Assembly: GCF_007997035.1 (NCBI RefSeq)
Contig: NZ_VOSS01000009.1
Location: forward strand, 1-64,000
Length of the DNA stretch: 64,000 nucleotides
Direction: 5' to 3'
Origin: Ralstonia sp. TCR112
Lineage (GTDB): Bacteria; Pseudomonadota; Gammaproteobacteria; Burkholderiales; Burkholderiaceae
Shown: positions 5,397 to 18,367 of the stretch, one piece after another
How positions within the stretch are numbered: the stretch's first letter is position 1
How the letters are laid out: each line of letters opens with the position of its first letter
Program-made: the position numbers and the translations under genes
The notes under the pieces: generated by a model
Told to the model about the DNA's origin: nothing
Databases searched by the model: none
The model's input: the letters and a program-made list of their open reading frames with translations, nothing else

Positions 5397-5725
5397 GCGT
5401 GGCCTCCGGTTGCGCTCCCGTGCCGTAAGCAGCCGGCATGCCAGGCCGGCTGGCCGACTGGTTGCGGCGCCGAGGGGCCCGTGGCAGCGGCGCACCTGGC
5501 CGTTTCTTCAATGGTGAGAAAAAACGACGTTCGGCGCACGATCGGTTCGCGGGGCATAAGCGTCGATTGCAAAGGTCCTGGACGGCTGAACGCAGTTGAA
5601 CGCCGCATCCGCGGTGCCTGCCGATCCAGTCGGAAGTTGATCTGTGTCAGCCAGCGAGGGGCAGCATCGACGTACCGTGGGTCCTATCAGAGAAGCCATC
5701 CAATAGGCTAAGAACGGGGAACGTC
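5397..5725. other. Intergenic region with FNR-box-like site
   Basis: 329 bp between divergent genes. It holds the start signals of the secreted protein on the minus strand and, on the plus strand, an FNR-like box at 5637. No other gene, RNA or repeat was recognised. Confidence 0.6.
5637..5650 (+). promoter_or_regulatory. FNR/ANR-type box upstream of the first orphan paralogue
   Basis: TTGATCTGTGTCAG matches TTGAT-N4-(A/G)TCAA in nine of ten half-site positions (last A is G). It lies 76 bp upstream of the ATG at 5726. An FNR-type regulator with matching recognition residues is encoded at 15921-16652. Binding itself is inferred. Confidence 0.6.
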
Positions 5726-6175
5726 ATGCTTGAGCAACAACCAGATGAGGTGGTCGCCGCCACGCTTTGGGAACTGGAATCCTCGGTGTCCCGTGCGCTG
5801 CCCGGAGGCGCGCTTGTCAGTTCCGCAAGGGCCGCCTGCGGCGGCTACGACGTGGCAGCGAAGTGGACGATGCCGACAGCCCTCGGCAATCGGCAGGAAT
5901 GCACCTTGAAACTGCATTTCAGCTTGGTGGAGGCCAGGGCGTACTGCCGGTTGAACCATCCAAGACGGGAGGAAATCTGCCGGCGCATGAGCGAATGGCT
6001 GGTGGGGCAGTTGGAAATCCAGGGCCGAGAGCGCGCAGACACCGGGTACGACCTGGTGCTGGCCGTGCCAAACGACTTCTTTGTGGATGAGCAAGACACC
6101 ATTCAGGTGGGCCGCCAGGACAGGGAGCACGATTTTTCGCTCTATCGAGGGGCATCACTGCCGCCGCTGACGTGA
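5726..6175 (+). CDS. Orphan paralogue family member A (possibly DUF3022-like)
   Basis: 149 aa, no signal peptide or membrane segment. It shares a fold-like pattern with the proteins at 6312 and 16922: a GGYDV-x-A(K/E)WT segment near residues 38-47, an alternating LxLHF strand, a CRRxxxW helix (CRRMSEW near 88) and a GYDLVLAVP-x2-FF block near 110. Those shared positions show three paralogues in the window. The start is ATG 5726, behind GGGGAACGTC. An FNR-like box 76 bp upstream suggests low-oxygen control. I half-recognise this as the DUF3022-type family of Ralstonia/Burkholderia, but could not verify that; the function is unknown. Confidence 0.8.
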   Translation: MLEQQPDEVVAATLWELESSVSRALPGGALVSSARAACGGYDVAAKWTMPTALGNRQECTLKLHFSLVEARAYCRLNHPRREEICRRMSEWLVGQLEIQGRERADTGYDLVLAVPNDFFVDEQDTIQVGRQDREHDFSLYRGASLPPLT

Positions 6176-6311
6176 GCGGAAGTTCGGTCCGCCATTTGAC
6201 GCTCCTCCGCTAAACATCGGTTCGTTGTGCGCCGTCAACGCACGCGGCTACGCAGGAGCTACCTTCGAATGGCGGCCCGTCAATGTGGGTGCGCGGAAAT
6301 GCGGAGGCCTT

Positions 6312-6698
6312 ATGCGCGAGACGATCAGCGAAGCCGAGAAGACCTGTCTACGTGAACTCCAAGATGCGCTAACCGAGACGCTGCCCCGCCGGGCCGTCTT
6401 GCGACTGGAAGGCGACGAGCTAGACGGAATAGATGTTCATGCGTGGTGGATAGTGGAAGGCCCGCAAGGCGCCAAGCAGGTGAATTCGTTTTCGTTCCAC
6501 CTGACGGAGTCGATGTTGCAGGCTTACTTCCACCAGCCCATGGAGGCGCGTGCAAGTACGTGCAGACGATTGAAGGATTGGGCGAACTGGGCGCTCGAAG
6601 GTGCAGAGGAGACTGGCGACAGCGAGATGGGCTTCGATATCTGCGTTGCCGTACCTGGGGGCATCTTCCATCCAGGCGCTGATTTGCAACGGGCCTGA
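6312..6698 (+). CDS. Orphan paralogue family member B
   Basis: 128 aa from ATG 6312, selected because CGGAGG at 6302-6307 is a good ribosome site; the longer in-frame start at 6225 lacks one. It keeps the family landmarks found at 5726 and 16922: FSFHL strand, CRRLKDW helix and GFDICVAVPGGIF block, but its N-terminal half is more divergent (HAWW replaces the AKWT segment). It follows paralogue A by 136 bp on the same strand, so both could be one transcript driven from the FNR-like box at 5637. Soluble, function unknown. Confidence 0.78.
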   Translation: MRETISEAEKTCLRELQDALTETLPRRAVLRLEGDELDGIDVHAWWIVEGPQGAKQVNSFSFHLTESMLQAYFHQPMEARASTCRRLKDWANWALEGAEETGDSEMGFDICVAVPGGIFHPGADLQRA

Positions 6699-6836
6699 CG
6701 GTCCATCGCAGGCGACGGCGGGAAGGGCTCGGTGCCATCGCGTGCGGGCCGGTAATGGACGTTGTGGGCGTCCATCCCGGAGCCCGCGTCAGGGCCGCTG
6801 CAGCCGGTAGCGAACCGGCAACCCCATCGCACCTGC

Positions 6837-8948
6837 TTACTGCGTAATCGCAGCGGTGCCCACTCGATAGCAGGTCGGAATCGCGTTCTTCTTGGGGCGT
6901 TGATAGATCAGTTTGTAGGCGCCGGTCGAGGCACGCGACTGCGGTGAACTGAATGTCACGACCTTCCCGTAATCGCCGTTCGCAGTGGCTTCTTTACCGA
7001 TGATCAGCGGCGAGAGGATCGGGTCTGTACGCGCGGAGTCCGCGTCGATGATGCGGCGCACGTGCGAGAGATTCTCGACGTACCAGTCCGCCTTCATCGC
7101 TGCGGTGGGGATCACGAACGGACGATATGCCGGGCCCGCAAAATGGCTGTCGATGATCATCCATGGGTCCTTGTCGGCACTTCCCAGTTCAGACGGAAGC
7201 ACCTTCTGACCGGCCGTTGCGCTCTTCAAGTAAGAACCAATGTCGGCACCCAGGCGCGAGCCGCGTTCTCCAGCGGTGGCCGGGTCGAACAGGTTGCCGT
7301 CCGGGCCATTTCTGAGTTCGCTGAATCGTTTGCCCGTCCAGGTGATGACGTGGGAGACGATGTAGCCGTTCGCGATGTTCGAAGGCGTGGCGTTCCTGGG
7401 CTGGGGCGCGGTCTGCGTGATGTACAGAAGGTCGCCCGGCCGCAGGTGGCCAACGAGGCTCGCGATGTTGCCTTGGTTGATGTCGAGCAGGACGCCCGCC
7501 TGCTCCTTGCCCACCAGCGGATCATCGCCGGTCGAACATGCCTGCGTGCCGATACCGGTTTCGAGATTGCCGTCCTTTTGCGTGACGCCCGCAAAGTTGT
7601 ATGCCCATGATGTGAAGTCCGAGCAATCGACCCCTAGCCACTTGACCTCGGCATGTGTCAGGGCAGCGAGACTCTGCGCGCCGTCGCTCCTGCGATTTGC
7701 CGTACACGTCATGCCGGAGCTATCACCACCAGATGTACTTCCGGATGACGAATTGCGGAACTTCGCCGGGCTTGCGGGCGGGAGCCAGCCGGGGATGTGG
7801 TGGTGGCAATAGTTCAGGCCCTGGTCCACCCAGTAGTTTTCCACGGCCATCACGAGTTCACGCTGGAACGTCGCAACGTCGGCATTGCACGACGCCGCGG
7901 AAATCGCGCCGTATACGGCGGCATGCGGTCCCCACGTCCCCCCATTTGCGTAGTTCGCCCAATTGGCGACGGTCACGCCGTTGCCAAGCTGCGCCTGCAC
8001 GTCGTTCTTTCGACTTTCGAACAGGGGGGACGCTTCGCCCAGGAGCGCGTTGCGGTCGTGGCAGGCCGCGTTGCTCACGGTGATGGACGAGGGTTGGCCC
8101 GGGATGATGGCGCGCAGCTTCGAAACAGACGTGATGCCAGAGCGGTTACGCGTCCCGCCGATATAGTCGGCAGCCCCTACCGTGATGGCGCAGTTCGCAG
8201 CGGCTGGCGCACTCACCGTGCCGTCAGCGGCTACGTCGCCCGCGCCGGCGTGGCAGTCGCTTAGTGTGTCGCCGTTGGCCGCCTGCGCGACGATGTTTGC
8301 AGTGCTCTCGGCAACTGATATCCCGGCAGACGTGCGGCTTTGTGATTCGGCACCCAAGGCCAGCGCCATGAGCGCGCCCGGCGTCACGTCCGACGTGCCG
8401 CCCGTTTCCACGAACGTGGGCAGCGTCTGCTGCACGTCGATGTTGCCTGCCAGGGCGTTCACGCGCGACAAAGCGGCGGCGACGTTGTCGGGAGTCAGGC
8501 CACCCGCGCTGCGGGCGTCTTCGACCACGGCATTCGACCACGGAGAGACAACCATCCGCGTCGGCTCAGACAAGTAGACCGCATCGACTTCACCCGAGAG
8601 GTTGCCGCTTGCGCCGCTCGCCTCTTCTTCGTATGTGCCTCCCGTTACCCGGACGAGCACGGGATAGCGCAGCGCCTGCCACAGCGAAAACGTGCCGTCG
8701 CTCGCGGTCATGGTGGTGGCAAGCGGCTCTGGCGCCGCACTGCCGTCGGGGTTCAGTGCGTAGATTGCGACTTTCGCGTTCGCCACGGCGCCCATTAAGA
8801 CGCTGCCGGAAACGACGGGGGCGGACGAGCCGCAGCCCGCGAGGGTAAGCGCGAGTACAGCGCTCGCCATGTAGGAGAGTTGTAAAGCTTTCACGGATGG
8901 ACGTGTCCGAATTCTGAGGCGGTTGATATTGCCGAGCTGCTCGAGCAT
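6837..8948 (-). CDS. Large lipoprotein with C-terminal NlpC/P60-like cysteine-hydrolase domain
   Basis: 703 aa if started at ATG 8948; a GTG at 8894 gives a tidier signal sequence. A lipobox (LTLAGC, Cys39) predicts lipidation. Residues 45-120 look like a carboxypeptidase-regulatory/beta-sandwich repeat (SGSVLMGAVANAKV, DGTFSLW). The C-terminal third holds GVDCSDFTSW (Cys442), VSHVITW (His533) and a DSHF segment (residues 600-603), the Cys-His-polar order of NlpC/P60 or CHAP amidases. Substrate could be peptidoglycan or another amide/ester; it is far longer than housekeeping NlpC lipoproteins. It converges with paralogue B. Assignment to the exact clan is tentative. Confidence 0.75.
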   Translation of the reverse strand: MLEQLGNINRLRIRTRPSVKALQLSYMASAVLALTLAGCGSSAPVVSGSVLMGAVANAKVAIYALNPDGSAAPEPLATTMTASDGTFSLWQALRYPVLVRVTGGTYEEEASGASGNLSGEVDAVYLSEPTRMVVSPWSNAVVEDARSAGGLTPDNVAAALSRVNALAGNIDVQQTLPTFVETGGTSDVTPGALMALALGAESQSRTSAGISVAESTANIVAQAANGDTLSDCHAGAGDVAADGTVSAPAAANCAITVGAADYIGGTRNRSGITSVSKLRAIIPGQPSSITVSNAACHDRNALLGEASPLFESRKNDVQAQLGNGVTVANWANYANGGTWGPHAAVYGAISAASCNADVATFQRELVMAVENYWVDQGLNYCHHHIPGWLPPASPAKFRNSSSGSTSGGDSSGMTCTANRRSDGAQSLAALTHAEVKWLGVDCSDFTSWAYNFAGVTQKDGNLETGIGTQACSTGDDPLVGKEQAGVLLDINQGNIASLVGHLRPGDLLYITQTAPQPRNATPSNIANGYIVSHVITWTGKRFSELRNGPDGNLFDPATAGERGSRLGADIGSYLKSATAGQKVLPSELGSADKDPWMIIDSHFAGPAYRPFVIPTAAMKADWYVENLSHVRRIIDADSARTDPILSPLIIGKEATANGDYGKVVTFSSPQSRASTGAYKLIYQRPKKNAIPTCYRVGTAAITQ

Positions 8949-9105
8949 CGACGTTGAGTATCTTCAGCGTATAAGGCGCACTGCCCGCCTGATCAACTAA
9001 ATAGCGAAGCGGACACCAGCCTTATCTTCCAATTGCGCAGATGCCGCGCCGGCATGTGCGCGCGACGCCGGTTGCCACCGCGGCCGATTCAGTTTTTGTC
9101 GGTGC

Positions 9106-11802
9106 TCAAGGAGGGCCGCCGCACTGCGGTACGGCTTCTGTGATCGGAACGTCGTCGGAGAATTCGTAGCGCGCTTTGCCGTGGCCCTTGGCGCGATAGA
9201 GCGCCTCGTCTGCGGCGGCAAACACGACGGCCCGCTCCACGTTGTGGCTCAGTCGTGCCACGCCAACGCTACACCCCAGTTCAATGACGACTTCACCAAA
9301 CTTGTAGGGCCGCGCGCCGATCGAAACGATTCGGCCAGCCAGCCTGTGCAACGCTTCGTCGTTCACCGGCCCGACGATGACGGCAAATTCGTCGCCACCG
9401 AAGCGGGCGACAAAATCGGACGGACGTGTGACTGTGCGCAGCCGGTCGGCAAATGCGCGCAGCACCTCGTCGCCGGTTGAGTGGCCGTAAGTGTCGTTGA
9501 CGCGTTTGAACCCGTCGAGGTCGATGAGCAGCAGGGCGCCCAGCTCGCGGCGGTTGCCGGAAGAAAGCGCTTTCTCCATCTGGTTGTCAAAGCCAGCGCG
9601 GTTCATCAGACCCGTGAGATGGTCTGTCATCGACAGGGTTTTCAGACGGATCTCCTTCTCCCTGCGGGCGGTGATGTCCGTGACAAGGATGTGCACACCG
9701 ATGACGGTGCCGTCGGCCCGGAACTGCGGAACATACTGAACTTCCCGGTATGTGAGCGAGGACCCGATGCGCTCCTCGCGCTCGAACTTCTGCGGGCTTC
9801 CCGCCAGCGCCTTCTCCAATGGCTCGCGCAGGCGCTCATACGCGGCCAGGCCCACGACTTCGGCAACGGTCTTGCCGACAAGACTCGAACGTGGCATGCC
9901 CATCTCGCTTGCATAGGCGGCGTTTACAAATTCGTATCGGCCGTCTGCGCCCACGAACAGCACGTGCCCCGGCATTGCGTCCGTGATGGTCTGCAAGGTC
10001 TCTGCGTTGCGCTGGATGGCTTCTTTCGCTGCCTTTTCGGCACGGATGTCCCGCATGAGCGCGGAGTAATGGTCAAGCTTGCCGGTGGCATCGCGGTGAA
10101 CGATGACGGTGTGGGCCACAGGAACGACTTCTCGCTCGGCGTTGTATGCGAGCGTTTCGCCCATCCACATGCCCGATCTCAGCGCGGTGGGCACGGCGAC
10201 CTCTTTCAGCAGCTGTAACGTCTGGGGCGGGTGGTAGTCGGCAATGGTCGTTTCGCTGACGGCTTTGTCGGGCGGAATGCCCGCGAAGACTCGACCCGCC
10301 GGGTTGATGTAGGTCAGTTGCCCGTACCGGTCTGTTTGGGCAATGAAGTCCGGCGTGGCTTCCAGAATGGACATCAGCGCGCCAATCGCCTCTTCGGCGC
10401 GAACGCGTTGTGTGATGTCTTCAATGACGCCGACATATCCTTCGGCTTTCCCGTCCACCACAACAGGGGCAGCCGTCACGGATATCTGGCGGTCCGGTTC
10501 GCCCGGTATGGAGAAGCGCTGCATGTCGCGAAAGAGCAGGCCCGCTTCTCTCGAGGCATCCCACGCGTTCTCTGCGCGCTCCTTGTCTTCCGGTGAGAGC
10601 CTTTCACGCCAGGAATCTGCAAGCGCATCTTCCTTCGACAGGCCGAGAATGCGGCAGTACGCGTCGTTGACATAGGTCGTGCGGCCGTCATTGCGTGTCC
10701 GGAAGAATCCGAGCGGTGATGCGTCGTTGACCGCTTCGAGTTCGGCCCTCTGCTGTACGACCTGACCCATGAGGGCGCGCAGGCTCCGCACGATGGAGTC
10801 GATTTCGGGAGAAGCGCGTCCGATATCGAGCGTAGTGAGCCCATCCCATTCGCAGTGGTCGGGCCGACGCAAAGCGACGTGCAGACGGTGCAAAGGCCTG
10901 AGAAGCCACTGCATGCCGCTCCACACAGACAACGCGACCAGACCAATCAGGCAAAGGGAAACCCACCCCAGGCGGTGTCGCATGACGGCAAAGGGGGCAT
11001 CAACTTCGGCCCTGGGGATGACCGACCCCAACGTCCATCCTGTGGCAATGACGTTCTCCAGCGTGATCATCGGCGCTGCCTCATCCAGAGGTTGGCCGGC
11101 AAGCGCCTTTGCGATGTCCGGCTCCGCTGTGGTGTTGGCGAGGAGCTTTTCGTCGTCTGGATGGATGACGAATACCGGGGCATTGCCCCGCTGAACAACG
11201 AATAGATAGCCGTGCTCGCCAATGCGGGTACTCCGCATGTCGCCCAGAAAGTTCGGGCGAAGCAACCCCAGCGATGCGCAGAACACGCCAACCATGTGAC
11301 CCGCTTCATTCAAGACGGGTGCGGCGAAGACGATGTTTGGCGCGCCTCCGATTCGGTTGCGCAGCGGTGCCGAGATGGTGGCCTGACCGACGACAACGAC
11401 TTGCTTGAAGTAGTCGCGGTCATGAACGTCCAGACCGACTACCTGCTCTACGTAAGGGGACACGGCTGTCACCTTGCCGTCCATGCCGACAAGGAACACG
11501 CCATCAAACATCCCGGCAGTGGGCGCGATGGAAGCAAAGTACTTGCGAGCGTCTTGCATAGACGCGAAGTGGACCGTGCGGGTCTGGCCTGCGGTGCGCT
11601 GGACAATGTCGAGGTACGCGTCCATGCGCTGACGGAGATCGGTCGCGGCATCCTTTACCAGCGCCTGTTGGTGCTTCTGAATCAATACCTGAATGTCTGA
11701 CCGGAACTTCGTTCGTTCGGCCAGGAAAGCGATGCAGATCAGGGTGGCCACGATGAGGCTGGCCAGCAAAGCAGCTTGGAATTTCAGGGTGGGCCGGCTC
11801 AT
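9106..11802 (-). CDS. Membrane diguanylate cyclase: CACHE sensor, three PAS domains, GGDEF
   Basis: 898 aa. TM1 at about 8-28 and TM2 at about 283-303 bracket a periplasmic double-CACHE (PDC) sensor. Three PAS domains follow (about 345-470, 475-595, 600-730; each ends with a V/L-xDIT or DIRA segment), then a GGDEF domain. The active site RFGGDEF (near 800) is intact and an inhibitory I-site RxxD (RPSD) lies exactly five residues before GGDEF, so it should make c-di-GMP with product inhibition. No EAL or HD-GYP domain is present. It is divergent from the chemoreceptor at 12324, with an FNR-like box between them. The sensed ligand is unknown. Confidence 0.93.
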   Translation of the reverse strand: MSRPTLKFQAALLASLIVATLICIAFLAERTKFRSDIQVLIQKHQQALVKDAATDLRQRMDAYLDIVQRTAGQTRTVHFASMQDARKYFASIAPTAGMFDGVFLVGMDGKVTAVSPYVEQVVGLDVHDRDYFKQVVVVGQATISAPLRNRIGGAPNIVFAAPVLNEAGHMVGVFCASLGLLRPNFLGDMRSTRIGEHGYLFVVQRGNAPVFVIHPDDEKLLANTTAEPDIAKALAGQPLDEAAPMITLENVIATGWTLGSVIPRAEVDAPFAVMRHRLGWVSLCLIGLVALSVWSGMQWLLRPLHRLHVALRRPDHCEWDGLTTLDIGRASPEIDSIVRSLRALMGQVVQQRAELEAVNDASPLGFFRTRNDGRTTYVNDAYCRILGLSKEDALADSWRERLSPEDKERAENAWDASREAGLLFRDMQRFSIPGEPDRQISVTAAPVVVDGKAEGYVGVIEDITQRVRAEEAIGALMSILEATPDFIAQTDRYGQLTYINPAGRVFAGIPPDKAVSETTIADYHPPQTLQLLKEVAVPTALRSGMWMGETLAYNAEREVVPVAHTVIVHRDATGKLDHYSALMRDIRAEKAAKEAIQRNAETLQTITDAMPGHVLFVGADGRYEFVNAAYASEMGMPRSSLVGKTVAEVVGLAAYERLREPLEKALAGSPQKFEREERIGSSLTYREVQYVPQFRADGTVIGVHILVTDITARREKEIRLKTLSMTDHLTGLMNRAGFDNQMEKALSSGNRRELGALLLIDLDGFKRVNDTYGHSTGDEVLRAFADRLRTVTRPSDFVARFGGDEFAVIVGPVNDEALHRLAGRIVSIGARPYKFGEVVIELGCSVGVARLSHNVERAVVFAAADEALYRAKGHGKARYEFSDDVPITEAVPQCGGPP

Positions 11803-12323
11803 GCGGATTTTTCTGTTATGCGTTTTGTCCGACTGCGGGACCGACGGCCCGGCGGGGCGCCGTCCACAGGCGCCGGCCGTTGTGAGCGGGATTGGGATTC
11901 GACGGAGTCACGGTGGTGGATCGACGCGCATCTCAATAGGGTGGCGTGCGTCTCGTAACGCGTGATCGCGGTGTACCGCTGCTCCAATCGACGCCTGCCG
12001 CGGAAACCTTAGAACCGCGTGCGAACGTTTCTTGATCTACGTCAAGGGTTTGGCGCTTGATTGCCGGCGACAGGACCGATGTTCAATGTTGCGTTTTTCC
12101 ACAACTGTTCCAGAGTGGAACGTTGCTCAAGCAGAGGGCTGCCGTGTTGGCCGCTGTGTTCGCCTCACGGCGGCGGGCCACTACGTGGACGTCCTTTGTC
12201 AGCTTGCGCTTGGCTGCTTCTGGCCTGGGTCTTGCAGAGATGGCATCGCAGGCCAACGGACCTGCGGGCCAACCGTCATGCGTTGCGCCCTTACACAAAA
12301 ACGCTGTTTTGCTGGGGAGCGCT
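11803..12323. other. Shared upstream region of cyclase and chemoreceptor
   Basis: 521 bp without a convincing gene. Open frames in it lack ribosome sites. The main signal is the FNR-like box at 12032-12045; if used as a -41.5 activator site it would place a plus-strand start near 12080 and a leader of about 240 nt before the chemoreceptor. Confidence 0.5.
12032..12045. promoter_or_regulatory. FNR/ANR-type box between cyclase and chemoreceptor genes
   Basis: TTGATCTACGTCAA fits the TTGAT-N4-(A/G)TCAA half sites completely and is the best such site in the window. It lies 230 bp from the cyclase start and 279 bp from the chemoreceptor start and could serve either direction. Confidence 0.68.
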
Positions 12324-14042
12324 ATGCAACTTCTGTCGAGATTCAGTCTCACCAAGAGACTCTATTTTTTCTCCTTCATCTTGATTGGCGCATTGGCCGC
12401 ACTGGCCATGGCGTCTTGGGTTCAGCTGTCCAACGTGGCGGCGCTTGCCGACACCGCTGGACGTGTCCGCGTGCTCCAATTGCAGCGCATCGCCAGTACC
12501 GAGCAGTGCGTGACGCGGGTGTTGCTGCAGATCCGCCATGCCATGTTGGTGAAGACGCCCGAAGACGTGGGCCAATCGGTTGAGCAAATCAACGCGCGAC
12601 GCAAGCAGATTTCCGAGAACGATGCCGCGTTCCTGAAGGAACTGACCAAGGCCGCAGACCGTGACGCTTTTGAAGCGAACTGGTTGAACCTTCAGAAGGT
12701 CACGTGGCCCTTTGTTGAGCGCAACCTGAAGCTCATCCAAGCGGGGCAACGAGACGACGCGTTCCACATGCTCATGACTGAAACCATTCCTGCGCTGGAT
12801 CGCATGCAGGCATGGCTCGACGCCGAGAAGAAGCGGCAAGAGGGCATCCTCACCGATGAAGTGGCGGGCATTACCGCCGCAGCATCGCAGACGCGGGGTC
12901 AGCTCAATGGCCTGGTGCTGGCGATTGCGGTGGGGCTTGTCGCTTTCTCGTGGTTCACGGGACGTTCCTTGCGTCAGCGTGTCGAAGTCTCGCAGCGTGT
13001 TGCAGAACGGGTGCGCGACGGCGACCTGATCGCAACACATGCCGACATGGCACGCGACGAATTCAGTCCGCTGCTGTCGGCCCTGAAGGCCATGCAGGAT
13101 TCGCTGGCCAGCGTGGTCGGTACGGTCCGGCAGAACGCCGACAACGTTGCTGCTGCGTCCACCGAGATTGCGCAAGGCAATACCGACCTCTCGAAGCGCA
13201 CCGAAGAGCAAGCCGCGTCCTTGGAGCAGACCGCTTCGACGATGGCTCAACTTACCGAGACGGTCCGGCAGAACGCCGATGCCGCCAAGCAGGCGAACGC
13301 TCTCGCCACGCGCGCTACCGACGTAGCCGACGCGGGCAACGATGCCATGCAAGGCATGGTCGGCACGATCGAGCAGATCAGCGGCAGCTCCACAAGAATC
13401 TCCGAGATCACCGGTGTGATCGAAGGCATCGCATTCCAGACGAACATCCTCGCGCTGAACGCGGCGGTGGAGGCCGCGCGCGCCGGCGAACAAGGCCGTG
13501 GCTTTGCGGTGGTTGCCAGTGAGGTGCGCAGCCTGGCGCAACGCTCGGCTGCAGCCGCAAAGGAGATCAAGGATCTGATCGGGTCGTCTGTGGCCATGAT
13601 CCAGGATGGCGCCAGGCAAGCGACCGATGTCGGCGCCACCATCGGAGAAGTAAAACAGGCCATCAAGCAGGTCGCCGATATCGTCAGCGAGATTGCCGCA
13701 GCTTCGGAGGAGCAAAGCCAGGGCATCGAACAGGTCAATCAGGCGGTGAGCCAGATGGATGAGGCCACCCAGCAAAACGCCGCGCTCGTGGAAGAGGCGT
13801 CTGCGGCCGCGCATTCGCTAGAGGAACAGGCGATCAAGCTCAAGCAGGCCGTGTCCGTTTTCAGGCTTGCCGACGATGGCGGGCTGGCCATGAGCAGCGG
13901 GGCGCTGCATGGCATGCCGGCGCCTAAGGGCTCCGTGGCGCGCAAGCCGAGTGTCAGCCCCAGGCGAGGTTCTGAACGCCTGGCATCCGCGGTGCAACCT
14001 GCAATGGCAGCGGGCTCAGGCGACCAATGGGAGGCCTTCTGA
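12324..14042 (+). CDS. Methyl-accepting chemotaxis protein
   Basis: 572 aa from ATG 12324; the frame is open further upstream but that part is not MCP-like. TM1 lies at about 11-33, followed by a four-helix-bundle periplasmic ligand domain, TM2 at about 190-210, a HAMP linker and the cytoplasmic signalling hairpin with the highly conserved tip ([20 protein letters not shown] near 370-390). The last residues QWEAF match the xWxxF pentapeptide that tethers CheR/CheB, so it is probably a high-abundance-type receptor. Its TGA overlaps the ATG of the next small gene. An FNR-like box lies 279 bp upstream, suggesting expression under low oxygen. Ligand unknown. Confidence 0.96.
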
Positions 14043-14356
14043 TGGACGCAGCAGCGATGATGTACGGCCCAGGAACATGCGGTGCGGCAACGGAGGACTT
14101 TACGCGGACAACCGCTGAAACCGTACTGCGGTTCAGTGGACGCCTGGCGGTGCTCTACCAGTTTGTGGGCGCGGTCTTTCTGCAGTGCGACGGCAAGCAA
14201 CTCAAGGCCATTACGCCTGCCTTCCGGCGTGGCATCGAAGAGTCGATGTCATTGACGGACGACATGGCCGTCCCGGCGGAGTATCACGATGCGTTGCTGG
14301 AACAGGCAAACGTCTTGTTGACAGCCCTCGAAGCCTTGGGGAACAAGCCCGTATAG
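14042..14356 (+). CDS. Small helical protein coupled to the chemoreceptor
   Basis: 104 aa, starting at ATG 14042, which overlaps the chemoreceptor stop (TGATG), so the two are translationally coupled. Predicted all-helical and soluble; no known motif was recognised. It resembles the 105 aa protein at 14678 in length and in the layout of its second half (acidic EE-S/A helix, then PAEYHDALLEQ versus PAYSDAFFDEV). Coupling to an MCP suggests a receptor accessory protein, but that is inference. Confidence 0.75.
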   Translation: MDAAAMMYGPGTCGAATEDFTRTTAETVLRFSGRLAVLYQFVGAVFLQCDGKQLKAITPAFRRGIEESMSLTDDMAVPAEYHDALLEQANVLLTALEALGNKPV

Positions 14357-14677
14357 GGCAGCGTTTCCCTGGACGAGCGTCGGTCGCCCAATCGCCTCCC
14401 CATCCTTTCGGTGCCGCGTTGCCGTGGCACCTGCTTGAGGCAATTCCATGGTGGTGGGGAGTCTGTTTTGGGCGCGTAGAACGTCGCCACCGCATCGGCT
14501 TTGCTCTCCACCTCCACTACGGTGTGCGCGCAGCAGCTGAGTTGAGCTTGAGCAGGATCAACTCCGCTCGCCTCCATCCCGTGTGTGAAAGCAGGAGTCG
14601 CACTTAACTTGAGGTAAGCGGTTGAGTTGGTGAGCGCCTTTAACGGCGAGCAGCCTTGCGACAGGGAGGAGACAGCC
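14357..14677. other. Intergenic region with candidate FNR box
   Basis: 321 bp between the two small helical proteins. It carries an FNR-like site at 14548 and, just before 14678, the ribosome site AGGGAGGA. No open frame in it has coding character. Confidence 0.5.
14548..14561 (+). promoter_or_regulatory. Candidate FNR box upstream of 105 aa protein
   Basis: TTGAGCAGGATCAA matches TTGAT-N4-ATCAA in nine of ten defined positions. It lies 116 bp upstream of the ATG at 14678, in an intergenic region. Weaker evidence than the site at 12032. Confidence 0.5.
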
Positions 14678-14995
14678 ATGACGCCCGAACCGGAAGACAC
14701 AGGCGAGCTTATTCAGGTCAAAGCCGTTCTGCGAAAGAACCTGGAGTCCATGGGCGCCATTGCGGCGCGCATGGTGGTGCTGATGAAGTTTCGGGAGGCG
14801 GTATTGCCGTATCTCCCGCCTGCCGCCGCGCGGGCGGCCCTCGATGCCTTCAACGCAAGCCTGGAAGAGGCGATCCCGCTGGCGGCCGAGTTCGGATCGA
14901 TGCCCGCATACAGCGATGCGTTTTTCGATGAAGTTCTGACGACCCGGGCAGCGATGCAGCGGCGGCAGAACGGCGAAGCGGTTCTCGATCATTGA
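14678..14995 (+). CDS. Small helical protein, probable paralogue of the 14042 product
   Basis: 105 aa from ATG 14678 behind a strong AGGGAGGA. Acidic N-terminus, then three or four amphipathic helices (LRKNLESMGAIAARMVVLMK; AAARAALDAFNASLEEA; a terminal helix ending in ARG/GLN-rich residues). No signal peptide. Similarity in size and helix order to the chemoreceptor-coupled protein at 14042 suggests duplication. A candidate FNR box lies upstream and a good terminator lies downstream at 15214. Function unknown. Confidence 0.75.
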   Translation: MTPEPEDTGELIQVKAVLRKNLESMGAIAARMVVLMKFREAVLPYLPPAAARAALDAFNASLEEAIPLAAEFGSMPAYSDAFFDEVLTTRAAMQRRQNGEAVLDH

Positions 14996-15394
14996 CGCGG
15001 CCGGACAACGCTATTTCGGTCTTTGATGGCCCCAGCCTGTCGTGGCCATCGATGCGGCTCGTCGTGGCTTTTTTTCCTGTTGCGATAGCGCGAATTTGCC
15101 TTAGCTCTTCCGGCGGATTCCAGGCCGCCCGGATTGGCCGCAGGATGTCGCCCGTGCCGTCCACGCTCGTGTTGCGGCACCCAGGGCGAGAGCTGACCTT
15201 CTCGTCTGTCCGAGGCCAAGCGCGTCCCAGCTTGGCCTTTTTTTTTGAGGGGCGCTTCGATCGCCAGGGCAATGGTGCAGTCGCTTTCCCAGGCCGGGTC
15301 GACGGCGGAGCTTGCGCAGCCGATGGCGCGGCGCAGAGCGGGTAGCGGGAAGCGGCGGTGTCGTTGGGTGCCATGCCGCTTCCGTGTGGGCGGC
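14996..15394. other. Gene-free stretch with terminator
   Basis: 399 bp. Contains the intrinsic terminator at 15214-15246 and a separate short inverted repeat GATGGCC/GGCCATC (15025-15052) without a T-run. No coding region, RNA gene or mobile remnant was recognised. Confidence 0.5.
15214..15246 (+). terminator. Rho-independent terminator
   Basis: Perfect 8-bp stem GGCCAAGC/GCTTGGCC with an 8-nt loop, followed by nine T residues. It would end transcription from the small-protein gene at 14678, about 220 bp downstream of its stop. Confidence 0.85.
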
Positions 15395-15631
15395 TTATGC
15401 AGCGGCAGGCAGGGAGGCGGAGGTTTCTTCAGCGGTCTGCTTGCCGAGCAGAATCGCCGCGCTCAATGCCATGCCTTCGGTGATGAAGCCTTCAGGCGAA
15501 CACGCAGACTGCCACTCCAATGGTGCTCTGCCGGTGGGCGCATAGCGAAACTCGCTCGCCCATCTGCCGTCGGTTCGTCGCTGTGTGCGTATTTCGACGT
15601 GGCCTCTCTGTGCTTTGACGATCAATTCCAT
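15395..15631 (-). CDS. Small hypothetical protein
   Basis: 78 aa from ATG 15631, chosen for the upstream GAGGGG; the frame is open further but without a ribosome site. N-terminal half is basic with alternating beta-like residues (VEIRTQRRTDGRW, EFRYAPTGR), followed by a short hydrophobic helix (ALSAAILLG) and an Ala/Ser tail. No family recognised. It lies between the terminator at 15214 and the FNR-type regulator, on the regulator's strand and 290 bp downstream of it. Confidence 0.55.
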   Translation of the reverse strand: MELIVKAQRGHVEIRTQRRTDGRWASEFRYAPTGRAPLEWQSACSPEGFITEGMALSAAILLGKQTAEETSASLPAAA

Positions 15632-15920
15632 GGGACCCCTCGTTATTGTGTCCCCCCTTCTCCCGTAGGCGGGGCGCCGTTCTGCGCGGCGCATCCCAAT
15701 AGCATCACGGTATGAATGTTTGAGTTCAATGTCTAGCGATTCCTCCAGTACATCGCGCGAAGCGCTGAATGGCCGCGCGTTTTCAGGATGTGCTGAATTG
15801 CGATGCGGCGATTTCTGCCAAGGCAGCGTGCCTTGCCCATTTGCCTTTGGGCGCATGGAAGATGCTCGCGAATGATCGACGAGCGAAAGCGCTTTCGCCG
15901 CCTGCTTCGTTCAGCGGAGG

Positions 15921-16652
15921 CTAGAGAACCGGGCGCTTTTGAACGCCCGCCTGTGCAACCGTCTCCAGCCCTTGCACGTCGAGGATCTGGATCTCGCGAT
16001 GGTCCACTCGCAAGATGCCTTCGCGCGCGAGCAAACTGAAGATCCGGCTCACGGTTTCGAGTGTCATGGCGAGGTGCTCGGCAATCTCTTCGCGGCTCAT
16101 GCGAAGGATGATGTGTCGATTGGAAAAGCCCCGTTCCCGCAGGCGTTCAGAAAGGTCGAGCAAAAACATGGCGATACGCTCTTCCGAGCGCATCGAACCG
16201 ATGCAGAGCATCAGCCGTTGTTTGCGGCCGATGCGCGCGCTGAAGATCTGCGTAACCAGTTGTTGAATCGCGCCTTCCCGTTGTGCCAATTCGGCAAGGC
16301 TGTTCCACGATATGGCGCATACCTCGGAGTCTTCCAACGCGATTGCCGTTGAGGTTCGGGTATCCGACTCGAAGCCGTCCGTGCCGAATATGTCGCCGCT
16401 CAGGTAGAACGCTGCGATCATTTCCCGGCCTTCGGCGGTGCCCAGCGTCAGCTTGAACGTCCCGTACTTGACCGCATAGATATCGTCCAGCGCATCGCCG
16501 GAACGGAAAATCGACTCGCCTCTCTTTACCCTGATCTTTCGATGTGCGATGTCCTCCACCAAGGCCGCCTCGCGGGTGTTCAAGCCACGCGAAAGGCAAA
16601 GGTGACCGTTCCGGCACGTGGTGCAGCCGAGGTTGGGGGTGTTGTTGGACAT
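15921..16652 (-). CDS. FNR-type transcriptional regulator with four Fe-S cysteines
   Basis: 243 aa. Cys10, Cys13 and Cys19 form the C-x2-C-x5-C pattern of FNR, and Cys112 is placed like the fourth ligand, so a [4Fe-4S] oxygen sensor is expected. A cNMP-type beta roll (about 25-140) is followed by a dimer helix and a winged helix whose recognition element is ETVSR (Glu199, Ser202, Arg203), the residues that read TTGAT half sites. Four TTGAT-type boxes lie within 11 kb. It is divergent from paralogue C, with a box between them. It is probably a paralogue of, or the genome's, anaerobic regulator. Confidence 0.93.
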   Translation of the reverse strand: MSNNTPNLGCTTCRNGHLCLSRGLNTREAALVEDIAHRKIRVKRGESIFRSGDALDDIYAVKYGTFKLTLGTAEGREMIAAFYLSGDIFGTDGFESDTRTSTAIALEDSEVCAISWNSLAELAQREGAIQQLVTQIFSARIGRKQRLMLCIGSMRSEERIAMFLLDLSERLRERGFSNRHIILRMSREEIAEHLAMTLETVSRIFSLLAREGILRVDHREIQILDVQGLETVAQAGVQKRPVL

Positions 16653-16834
16653 GAGGCGTGCGGGGGGGCGGGAGGGGAAACAATAGTGTTATCGGCAGCC
16701 GCTCCCGGAACTTCATGTTGCCGCGTCAGATACCCGATACGCAGGTATCTTCGCGGCACGTAGCTCTTCGCGTGTGACGGATCGTTTGCAGAAGCCACAG
16801 TAGTACACGAGCCCACCGCCGATACGCCCAATAA

Positions 16835-16848
16835 TTGATCCACGTCAG
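16835..16848 (+). promoter_or_regulatory. FNR-type box between the regulator and paralogue C
   Basis: TTGATCCACGTCAG matches the half sites except the last base, just like the site at 5637. It lies 74 bp upstream of the ATG at 16922 (the 5637 site lies 76 bp upstream of its gene) and 183 bp from the regulator's own start, so autoregulation is possible. Confidence 0.62.
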
Positions 16849-16921
16849 TATTTTGGCCAACGCGGCGGGTACGCTCGGGGAATTTCGATACTGGTCCAGC
16901 TTCGAACCCGGGGGAAACGCA

Positions 16922-17317
16922 ATGCTGAACGCACAAGTCGAAGAGACCGGCGCCGCTGCCGAACGGGAATTGGGCGCCGTGGTCGCAGCAACGCTACCGC
17001 GAAGTGCATTTGTCAGAACATTCCACACAAAAGCCGGCGGCTACGACGTCGAAGCGGAATGGACGACCCGTAGCCCTTACGGGCTGCAGGCAAATTGCAC
17101 GCTTGCGCTCCATTTCACGGGCGCGGAGATATCCAGCTACGCCAGTTTCAGTGCCGCCAAGCGTGAAGAGGCATGCCGCCGAGTGGCCGACTGGTTGAGT
17201 ATTCGGCTGGAAGTGCAGGCAGGGGACATTCTCTGGGACAAGGGGTTTGATATCGAGGCGGTGGCGCCTTCGGCCTTCTTCGTTGAAGAGACCGGTCGGA
17301 CTAAAACCCTGCAGTAG
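16922..17317 (+). CDS. Orphan paralogue family member C
   Basis: 131 aa from ATG 16922, preceded by GGGGGAAA; the longer frame from 16835 begins inside the FNR box and is rejected. It aligns by eye with the protein at 5726: GGYDVEAEWT versus GGYDVAAKWT, LALHF versus LKLHF, CRRVADW versus CRRMSEW, and GFDIEAVAPSAFF versus GYDLVLAVPNDFF. Soluble and of unknown function. The same box-to-gene distance as paralogue A argues for common regulation. Confidence 0.8.
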   Translation: MLNAQVEETGAAAERELGAVVAATLPRSAFVRTFHTKAGGYDVEAEWTTRSPYGLQANCTLALHFTGAEISSYASFSAAKREEACRRVADWLSIRLEVQAGDILWDKGFDIEAVAPSAFFVEETGRTKTLQ

Positions 17318-17496: not shown

Positions 17497-18093
17497 CTAG
17501 TGCCCCTGCCCATACCCCTCCAGGCTCAGCAGCAATCCCTTCAACGCATCCTTGAAGCTATGGCCGGCCTTCATTAGTTCCGCCAGGCTCTTCACACACT
17601 CGGCGCGCTTGGCACCGGGCGGGTGGTCACCAGACCAGCCGGCGTTGAAGATGCCGGTCGCAACGCCGTTGTTGGCAACGTTGCAGATATCGTCCCAGCT
17701 CACCCCGGCTTGCTTCAGCAGGTATGCGGCACCCAGGTCCGCAATGATCTCCGTGCGCGGGCCGTCCAGCGGTCGCTTGTGGTCGTAGCCCAGGTCTGCC
17801 GCCAGCTTTTCGCTGAAGGCGTGGCCCAGTTCGTGGGCAAGGGCAAATTTGATGGTGTTGTCGCCAAGCTGGAGCAAGCGGCTGTTCACGTCGATGACGA
17901 CGTCGGTCACGTTGTTGTGTTCGTAGGTGCCCAGCGTGGAGTTGGGCACAGCGTTGCCGATGCCGTTGTCCAGCCTGACTGCCCCGGTGACGGGCAGCCC
18001 GCCGATGGCGGTGAATGCGCCGCCGTTGTAGAAGTCCCGCTTGATGATGGCAACCAGGTTGCCACCAATAACAGTTGCTTGTGCGATGTCCAT
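17497..18093 (-). CDS. M48-like zinc metallopeptidase without signal peptide
   Basis: 198 aa from ATG 18093, behind AGGAAGAG. The core is AHELGHAF (His87-Glu88-His91) with a downstream ExxxD (Glu115, Asp119, in TEIIADLGAAYL), giving the zincin HExxH...ExxxD arrangement of M48-type peptidases; a GDHPPGAKRAE segment near residue 155 resembles the HPP-x-KR feature of that family. Unlike HtpX or BepA it has no membrane helices or signal peptide, so it is cytosolic or uses an unrecognised export route. The C-terminus is Gly-rich. No obvious partner gene is adjacent. Substrate unknown. Confidence 0.75.
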   Translation of the reverse strand: MDIAQATVIGGNLVAIIKRDFYNGGAFTAIGGLPVTGAVRLDNGIGNAVPNSTLGTYEHNNVTDVVIDVNSRLLQLGDNTIKFALAHELGHAFSEKLAADLGYDHKRPLDGPRTEIIADLGAAYLLKQAGVSWDDICNVANNGVATGIFNAGWSGDHPPGAKRAECVKSLAELMKAGHSFKDALKGLLLSLEGYGQGH

Positions 18094-18367
18094 GATCGAT
18101 CTCTTCCTGACGTTGGTTTGGGAGTCGGTCGACAACGTCAATCTGAACGAAGCCATGCGCGCAAAATGCGAGATCGCGATCGCACGTGTGTCGTCATCCG
18201 TTGCCGTGAAGAGAAGGTAGGTCTGCGTGCCGCATGAAACCATGTGCCAATCGGCCCAGCCGTCGCTATATGCCGTTGACAAGGGCCGGTGCGCGGCGTG
18301 TCCCGCAACAGGTGTTTGGCAGCGTTAAAGGCGTGGCACGCGGCAATTGCCGCAACCGTTAATCGCC

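Follow-up and report, generated by a model that had tools for sequence, protein, structure and literature searches.

Several FNR-type boxes in a gene island of Ralstonia sp. TCR112 are real and conserved, and their placement lies far beyond chance. The genes of a small-protein family encoded there share one promoter plan around such boxes. We consider it quite probable that, as a whole, the island belongs to the FNR regulon of Ralstonia near R. pickettii, with class II activation of the small-protein genes. Low-oxygen control of these proteins by an FNR-type regulator, as proposed in a first-pass annotation of the DNA, finds support in conservation, promoter spacing, and gene context, all read from sequence.

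FNR-type boxes in the island

The window, that is, the whole stretch of 64,000 nt that we analyzed, had been annotated with four FNR-type boxes, and all four are where they were placed. They lie before gene A (5637..5650, + strand, TTGATCTGTGTCAG), upstream of a diguanylate cyclase (12032..12045, − strand, a perfect box, TTGATCTACGTCAA, or TTGACGTAGATCAA when read on that strand), before a 105–amino acid protein (14548..14561, + strand, TTGAGCAGGATCAA), and before gene C, which shares this intergenic region with an FNR paralogue here called FnrB (16835..16848, + strand, TTGATCCACGTCAG). The total itself needs correction: a degenerate fifth box with two mismatches precedes gene B (6225..6238, + strand, TTGTGCGCCGTCAA), and gene D, outside the window, has a box of its own. 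The distances from the box ends to the ATG, 76 bp for A and 74 bp for C, agree with the earlier description.

By number alone, the boxes are unremarkable. Seven sites in the window have at most one mismatch to TTGATNNNNRTCAA, of which two (30610 and 61324) are outside the island and one (10304) is inside the cyclase gene; this count is not above the genome average (407 strand-counted matches in 5.44 Mb). When two mismatches to TTGATNNNNATCAA were allowed, the window gave 18 matches against 10.5 expected, a count reached in 1 of 100 shuffles. Their placement, by contrast, stands out. Of the 10 intergenic regions of the island (2,398 bp in total, delimited from our own choice of genes), 4 contain a box with at most one mismatch, where 0.072 would be expected, and none of 3,000 dinucleotide shuffles reached this number. 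At related loci of other Ralstonia, the boxes are kept. In a wrong-spacing control counted by hand, we found 16 distinct places with the N4 spacing versus 25 across N5 to N8 combined.

A promoter plan common to four paralogues

Genes A (149 amino acids, 5726..6175, + strand), B (128 amino acids, 6312..6698, + strand), and C (131 amino acids, 16922..17317, + strand, divergent from FnrB) are paralogues, and a fourth one, D, is on another contig, outside the window, with a box upstream. The family of A is found in 11 of the 16 genus genomes, while C is present in G000, in two copies in G015, and as a fragment in G014. For each copy, we took the best box 60 to 110 bp upstream, including degenerate ones. 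The box centers are 77.5 to 95.5 bp upstream of the ATG and are followed by a −10 element of the form TAnnnT, which is 21 or 22 nt from the box in 24 of 25 copies. This set leaves out the C fragment of G014 and a weak match in G319, and keeps D′ of G010, for which neither a box nor a −10 was found, as the miss. The element of A is TACCGT (5673..5678, + strand), 22 nt after the box in 11 of 11 copies; that of B is TACCTT (6260..6265, + strand), 21 nt after the degenerate box in all seven copies; and that of C is TACGCT (16870..16875, + strand), 21 nt after the box in all three full copies.

As a set, the four genes have a box close to TTGATNNNNATCAA, as expected of an FNR class II promoter. At most one mismatch to TTGATNNNNRTCAA was found in 9 of 11 copies of A, 3 of 3 of C, 2 of 4 of D, and 0 of 7 of B. 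The box of B has two mismatches in every copy, with the sequence and the distance to the ATG identical in all seven. In an alignment of the region upstream of A from 11 genomes, the 14-mer stretch with the highest conservation is the box; it has two mismatches in G013 and four in G006, where its left half is lost, and the box of D has two mismatches in G001. When the 25 copies were reduced to eight representatives (three groups of A, B, C, D, D of G001, and D′), the probability of at least seven having TAnnnT at a gap of 21 or 22 was ~5e-14 by mononucleotide shuffle, a value that, over related genes, measures retention rather than independent origin. Judged from the gap to the −10, with predicted start sites, the layout of A, B, C, and D would be that of class II FNR promoters, with the box at about −41.5.

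Seven of 11 other perfect gene-facing boxes of this genome show the same gap, and 4 of the 11 lack TAnnnT at 21 or 22. These controls were the loci L001 to L015 with an open reading frame after the box, excluding L004, L005, L011, and L014. The boxed genes with this gap include those for a universal stress protein, hemN, and ccoN (identities read by eye), and a perfect box also precedes a ribosome hibernation factor gene. All four are oxygen-type targets.

The small proteins are predicted distant relatives of DUF3022

The small proteins had been regarded as orphans. This holds with respect to the Pfam cut-off: A, B, and C of the window had no Pfam match of their own at E ≤ 1, and five relatives tested against DUF3022 (PF11226) scored 16.3 to 24.9 bits, below the gathering score of 30.6 bits. 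It does not hold for profile comparison, in which hhalign matched a 25-row family alignment to DUF3022 with a probability of 94.9% over 101 columns, as compared to at most 0.7% for 11 negative controls (eight shuffles, a reversal, and two unrelated alignments), but a narrow alignment of A only gave 3.9%. The Ralstonia proteins match DUF3022 in length and pattern across ~100 columns and differ in that the copies tested fall below the Pfam cut-off or have no match. By these profile comparisons, the small proteins form a branch of Pfam DUF3022 that is divergent and stays below its threshold. The family is nearly confined to Ralstonia, with the box kept in almost all copies compared. For six DUF3022 genes over the cut-off in four other genomes, and for one gene below it, the 400 bp upstream of the Pfam match contain no box with one mismatch or fewer, and a literature search returned no paper on DUF3022.

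A is flanked by a P-type ATPase gene and phaC in three diverged Ralstonia (G004, G006, and G013), and the phaC side of this neighborhood is kept in G001. In G013, genes for HSP20, a β-CASP hydrolase, and a PRPP-synthetase–like protein are within 8 kb of A. These surroundings suggest a low-oxygen–type cluster. The products are small, acidic α/β proteins with a pI of ~4.7 to 5.1, and their most likely role is that of cytosolic accessory proteins in survival at low oxygen; that they act by binding a partner protein is a tentative guess.

The cyclase, the chemoreceptor, and the 105–amino acid protein

The box at 12032 lies between the diguanylate cyclase gene (dCache, three PAS, and GGDEF; 9106..11802, − strand) and a chemoreceptor gene (4HB_MCP and MCPsignal; 12324..14042, + strand), and a low-oxygen switch of motility had been proposed on this basis. 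G015 lacks the chemoreceptor gene and yet retains the box next to the cyclase, and alignable sequence stops at the box toward the chemoreceptor (by eye). Thus, the box belongs with the cyclase, while its link to the chemoreceptor, and with it the motility switch, is unsupported. On the cyclase side, where promoter elements were sought, TAAGGT (12006..12011, − strand) is a possible −10 and a weak candidate, with an inconstant spacing of 20 nt after the box here and 18 nt in G015.

The start of a 104–amino acid protein (14042..14356, + strand) overlaps the chemoreceptor stop. It is a relative of the 105–amino acid protein (14678..14995, + strand), which has three predicted helices and belongs to no family. 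The box of the latter has one mismatch in four of four loci, and upstream similarity starts at the box. A −10 candidate, TAACTT (14605..14610, + strand), is 43 nt after the box in all four, which would make this a candidate class I–like promoter with the box at about −62.5.

FnrB and the other FNR-type regulators

FnrB (15921..16652, − strand) is of the FNR type, as had been recognized: C10, C13, C19, and C112 are present and invariant among five aligned FNR-type proteins, and ETVSR is found at residues 199 to 203. The protein matches cNMP_binding and HTH_Crp and has the E-x-x-S-R recognition helix. With 173.4 bits, it misses the NCBIfam Fnr cut-off of 228 bits (NF008365) and is thus an FNR-like paralogue rather than Fnr proper. 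In the tree, it forms a separate Ralstonia clade.

The role of cognate regulator assigned to FnrB fits its distribution poorly. It is present in only 4 of the 16 genus genomes. A box with at most one mismatch precedes A in all 4 of them, but also in 5 of the 7 genomes that carry A and lack FnrB. Because the box persists where FnrB is absent, it is probably read by another FNR. Of the at least three FNR-type proteins encoded, the widespread one near ccoN would be the best candidate for recognizing A's box, and FnrB may add a strain-specific layer.

Alternative explanations and the proposed model

The same distribution weighs on the idea that FnrB is a dedicated local regulator with the boxes as its private regulon, which we regard as unlikely. 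FnrB, with its Fe-S cysteines and ETVSR helix, does form a divergent pair with C around a single intergenic region with a box, an arrangement that occurs twice in G015, and the boxes of A and C have, at position 14, a G in place of A and, at position 6, mostly C. This resembles the Fnr3 motif of Herbaspirillum seropedicae, described in passages of PMC5934665 as relaxed at position 14 and preferring C or G at position 6; however, the other boxes of this genome frequently carry C or G at position 6 as well. Less likely still is a response to nitric oxide in place of oxygen, with a DNR-type protein of near-identical motif controlling some of the boxes. The motif predicted for DNR of denitrifying β-proteobacteria, including three Ralstonia, is CTTGATnnnnATCAAG (passages of PMC1274295), and the cyclase box with its flanks, cttgatctacgtcaag, has this form. 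Against this, perfect boxes precede ccoN, hemN, and the stress and hibernation genes, and CxxCx5C is present in 27 of 27 FNR-type rows of the tree, the set of proteins covered by this check.

That the boxes arose by chance, or were retained merely through conserved neighboring sequence, is very improbable overall. The unexceptional number of one-mismatch sites in the window would fit chance, and the D promoters of G000 and G010, which are nearly identical over their whole length, would fit retention through neighboring sequence. The intergenic shuffles, the box as the conserved 14-mer, the boxes kept at related loci, and the constant gap to the −10 refute, in our reading, this explanation for A, C, and the 14678 gene; it may still account for B and the cyclase.

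We favor membership in the FNR regulon with class II activation. As oxygen falls, an FNR-type [4Fe-4S] regulator would dimerize and bind the boxes; A, C, D, and probably B would be activated with the box near −41.5. For the 14678 gene, activation would proceed from its class I–like promoter with the box near −62.5. A literature search found no fitting paper on oxygen-dependent activation or FNR binding of the A, B, C, and D promoters. If the model is correct, the small-protein family gains a testable physiological role as direct low-oxygen genes in a genus whose members are environmental and opportunistic bacteria, and four paralogues with one promoter plan offer a natural set for studying how multiple FNR proteins divide or share sites. 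A bolder and improbable extension is that Ralstonia enlarged the genus-specific DUF3022 branch into a dedicated low-oxygen set that cooperates with diguanylate cyclases and is tuned by a mobile FNR paralogue evolved in the genus, FnrB, which would amount to a previously undescribed low-oxygen c-di-GMP module.

Comparison with known systems

The lxa locus is the low-oxygen–activated locus of Burkholderia cenocepacia. A possible likeness in gene content lies in the HSP20 and metallo-β-lactamase genes near A in G013 and the PfkB kinase gene in a related G000 cluster, which also has a hibernation factor gene (PMC6127331 and PMC9060813, in part). In contrast to lxa, the examined stretch of the G000 cluster has no A, and the passages of these papers name no DUF3022 gene. 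In the Ralstonia solanacearum complex, FNR and two FNR-like regulators are described in the context of denitrification, and intergenic FNR sites have already been predicted with the E. coli matrix; the likeness is the three FNR-type genes in the genus (passages of PMC9973335). The three-Fnr system of H. seropedicae likewise has several FNR-type proteins with slightly differing box types, an fnr gene near highly induced genes, and universal stress proteins among its targets (passages of PMC5934665); FnrB, in contrast, forms its own Ralstonia clade. In E. coli, 19 of 23 FNR-activated promoters have the box at −41.5 ± 4, and one has it at −60.5 (passages of PMC3688515). The Ralstonia system shares with this class II regulon the box consensus, the recognition residues, the Fe-S cysteines, and the spacing from box to −10, and it differs in that the targets are unannotated small proteins and that several FNR paralogues are present.

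FNR-type boxes fall in the intergenic regions of the island more often than expected by chance

Re-reading of the sequence bore out the four FNR-type boxes of the first-pass annotation (at 5637, 12032, 14548, and 16835), their distances to the ATG, and the features of the FNR protein. The window belongs to contig C282 of a 5.44-Mb draft genome (G000), and the collection comprises 16 genomes of the genus, cited here by their G numbers. The boxes are unremarkable by count: seven window sites differ from TTGATNNNNRTCAA at no more than one position, which does not exceed chance, and the whole genome has 407 strand-counted matches to the box motif. Their placement, in contrast, exceeds chance. A box was present in 4 of the 10 intergenic regions of the island against 0.072 expected in total, and four was reached in none of 3,000 dinucleotide shuffles; as these regions were examined after the finding was already known, the figure is to be taken jointly with conservation.

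Hand counts placed perfect matches at 16 distinct sites genome-wide and identical half-sites at the wrong spacings N5 to N8 at 25 (four spacings, about six per spacing), while a backward-motif control, judged too favourable, gave one match. Neighbours of perfect boxes, read by eye, included a universal stress protein, alcohol dehydrogenase, hemN, ccoN, and an Aer-like PAS receptor; a ribosome hibernation factor adjoining a perfect box was confirmed with Pfam.

The boxes and their promoter layout are conserved in Ralstonia

At related loci of other Ralstonia, boxes are kept before the small-protein paralogues A (5726..6175) and C (16922..17317) and before the gene of a 105-amino acid protein (14678..14995, +; 14678 gene). 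When the upstream regions of A from 11 genomes were aligned, the box was the most conserved 14-mer stretch; next came the -10 region together with GCCATCCAATAGGC. The A box had at most one mismatch in nine of these genomes and two in G013, and its left half was gone in G006. The C box was retained in all three full copies, and upstream similarity among the four compared loci of the 14678 gene starts at the box. The box before the diguanylate cyclase (9106..11802, -) was retained in G015, the sole other occurrence of this cyclase among the loci compared. Before paralogue B (6312..6698), where no box had been listed, 7/7 genomes have a degenerate yet unvarying TTGTGCGCCGTCAA in the corresponding position. 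The original observation of the boxes is right, and stronger than first put.

In each of 25 copies of the paralogues A to D (D being a fourth one, on another contig), we chose the best box located 60 to 110 bp ahead of the start codon, then sought the -10 element TAnnnT downstream. It began 21 nt (B, C, and D) or 22 nt (A) after the box end in 24 copies, the exception being D', the D-type copy of G010. For eight representatives, P(≥7) was ~5e-14 (mononucleotide shuffle), which measures retention of the layout rather than its repeated origin because the genes are orthologues and paralogues. Seven of the 11 other perfect boxes facing a gene in G000 showed the identical gap. With a -10 element starting at about -12, these gaps would center the box at -40.5 to -41.5, a class II position; of the 23 E. 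coli FNR-activated promoters described in PMC3688515, 19 have it at -41.5 ± 4, and a single one has it at -60.5. For the 14678 gene, a candidate -10 element lies at gap 43 in 4/4 loci, a class I-like layout. The cyclase gap was 20 versus 18 nt in two genomes and, not being constant, makes weak promoter evidence. As far as sequence can tell, the proposed oxygen-responsive control of FNR type holds for the small proteins and may hold for the cyclase; the motility switch attached to it is unsupported.

The small proteins are distant relatives of DUF3022

A, B, C, and D form one family, present in 11/16 genus genomes, with one weak match in 283 other genomes searched of the taxonomic family. A, B, and C of the window had no Pfam or NCBIfam match at E ≤ 1 and only one PHROGs match (E 0.3). 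In five relatives (D of G000, G010, and G001; D'; and A of G001), DUF3022 was the sole Pfam family, below cut-off. A 25-row family alignment scored 94.9% against DUF3022 proteins (11 negative controls, ≤0.7%) and a narrow A-only alignment 3.9%, so the link depends on the broad profile. Given this and the sub-cut-off matches, we class the family as distant DUF3022 relatives, not members. We found no paper on DUF3022 (PF11226). Boxes with one mismatch or none were missing from the 400 bp that precede the match in six above-cut-off DUF3022 genes of four other genomes, and likewise in one gene below the cut-off; among the genes seen, the FNR link is therefore a Ralstonia trait. The predicted structure of C (pLDDT 82.9) comprises a helix, three strands, two helices, a strand, and a short helix, and fold comparison of this model gave no decisive match. 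A weak DUF3022-like gene in another genus (locus L154:9208-10195) adjoins a 39% relative of a small gene from the A-holding Ralstonia cluster.

More than one FNR-type protein may read the boxes

At least three G000 proteins of FNR type carry the cluster cysteines: one encoded on contig C216 (~5 kb from ccoN), one on contig C267 (near other boxed genes), and FnrB in the window (15921..16652, -). FnrB had been proposed as the regulator in charge, which is probably wrong: of the seven A-bearing genomes that lack FnrB, five have an A box with no more than one mismatch, and the protein is thus not required to account for this box. FnrB forms a separate clade in the FNR tree and occurs in 4/16 genus genomes and in none of 398 other genomes drawn from the order (E ≤ 1e-62). 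Of 13 genus genomes compared, 12 have the ccoN-type FNR; G001 gave weaker matches only, one cut by a contig end. FnrB may read the C box, since its gene and C are divergently paired, twice over in G015. A DNR-type protein of the kind described in PMC1274295 might read the cyclase box. As described in PMC5934665, three Fnr proteins of H. seropedicae split promoters into groups with slightly differing boxes; the closing G of the A and C boxes resembles the Fnr3-type relaxation at position 14 reported there, a lead rather than a test. For the R. solanacearum complex, PMC9973335 describes one FNR and two FNR-like regulators, with FNR sites predicted using an E. coli matrix. A second FnrB-like protein (75 to 76% identical) is encoded in G010 (L093:9125-9856); the gene for a 2Fe-2S/4Fe-4S protein and another gene of FNR type lie a few kilobases away.

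Gene neighbourhoods

Diguanylate cyclases adjoin the family in the window and at D, where a MASE4-GGDEF gene is divergent; a box lies between these two genes (L100:7663-9885), as one does before the window cyclase. G010, G015, G008, and G009 have further GGDEF genes close to A/B or C; among the loci compared, none was found near A in G004, G006, G013, and G001 or at the D-type loci L099 and L102. Both family loci of G000 have a GGDEF gene nearby; given the 30 GGDEF rows in this genome, we calculate that any one locus would have such a gene within 4 kb with a probability of ~4%. The association is suggestive only.

In G015, an ArsA-like ATPase and a probable ArsD, read from sequence (L083:14428-16596), lie between the cyclase and the 14678 gene, the position of the chemoreceptor (12324..14042, +) in the window. 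The 104- to 105-amino acid proteins at 14042-14356 and 14678-14995, without family, are probably paralogues, as both match one G007 gene. A 153-amino acid protein (15395-15856, -) accompanies the 14678 gene and, in G014 (L097:10831-11281), also a C fragment. The gene at 17497-18282 (-) has a sub-threshold Peptidase_M48 match.

The second C-FnrB-14678 cassette of G015 (contig C33, L095:1658-3375) lies near a 311-amino acid gene (L095:3564-4499) starting MCYSAQIEADYRRF. The same gene also neighbours D in G000 and in G010 (L098:8677-9612 and L100:10089-11024), as if this were an insertion place common to the cassette and the D genes.

In G004, G006, and G013, A is flanked by a cation P-type ATPase on one side and phaC on the other; G001 retains the phaC side. 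Within 8 kb, G013 also has HSP20, beta-CASP hydrolase, PRPP-synthetase-like, and nucleoside-phosphorylase-like genes (domains were Pfam-checked in G013 and assigned from position and similar sequence in G004 and G006). A related cluster on C267 of G000 holds several boxes, the hibernation factor, PfkB, and an FNR; A was sought in this cluster and not found, the A of G000 being in the window. The B. cenocepacia lxa locus, as described in PMC6127331, is partly comparable in content. The finding represents a new target set for a known kind of regulon, that of FNR.
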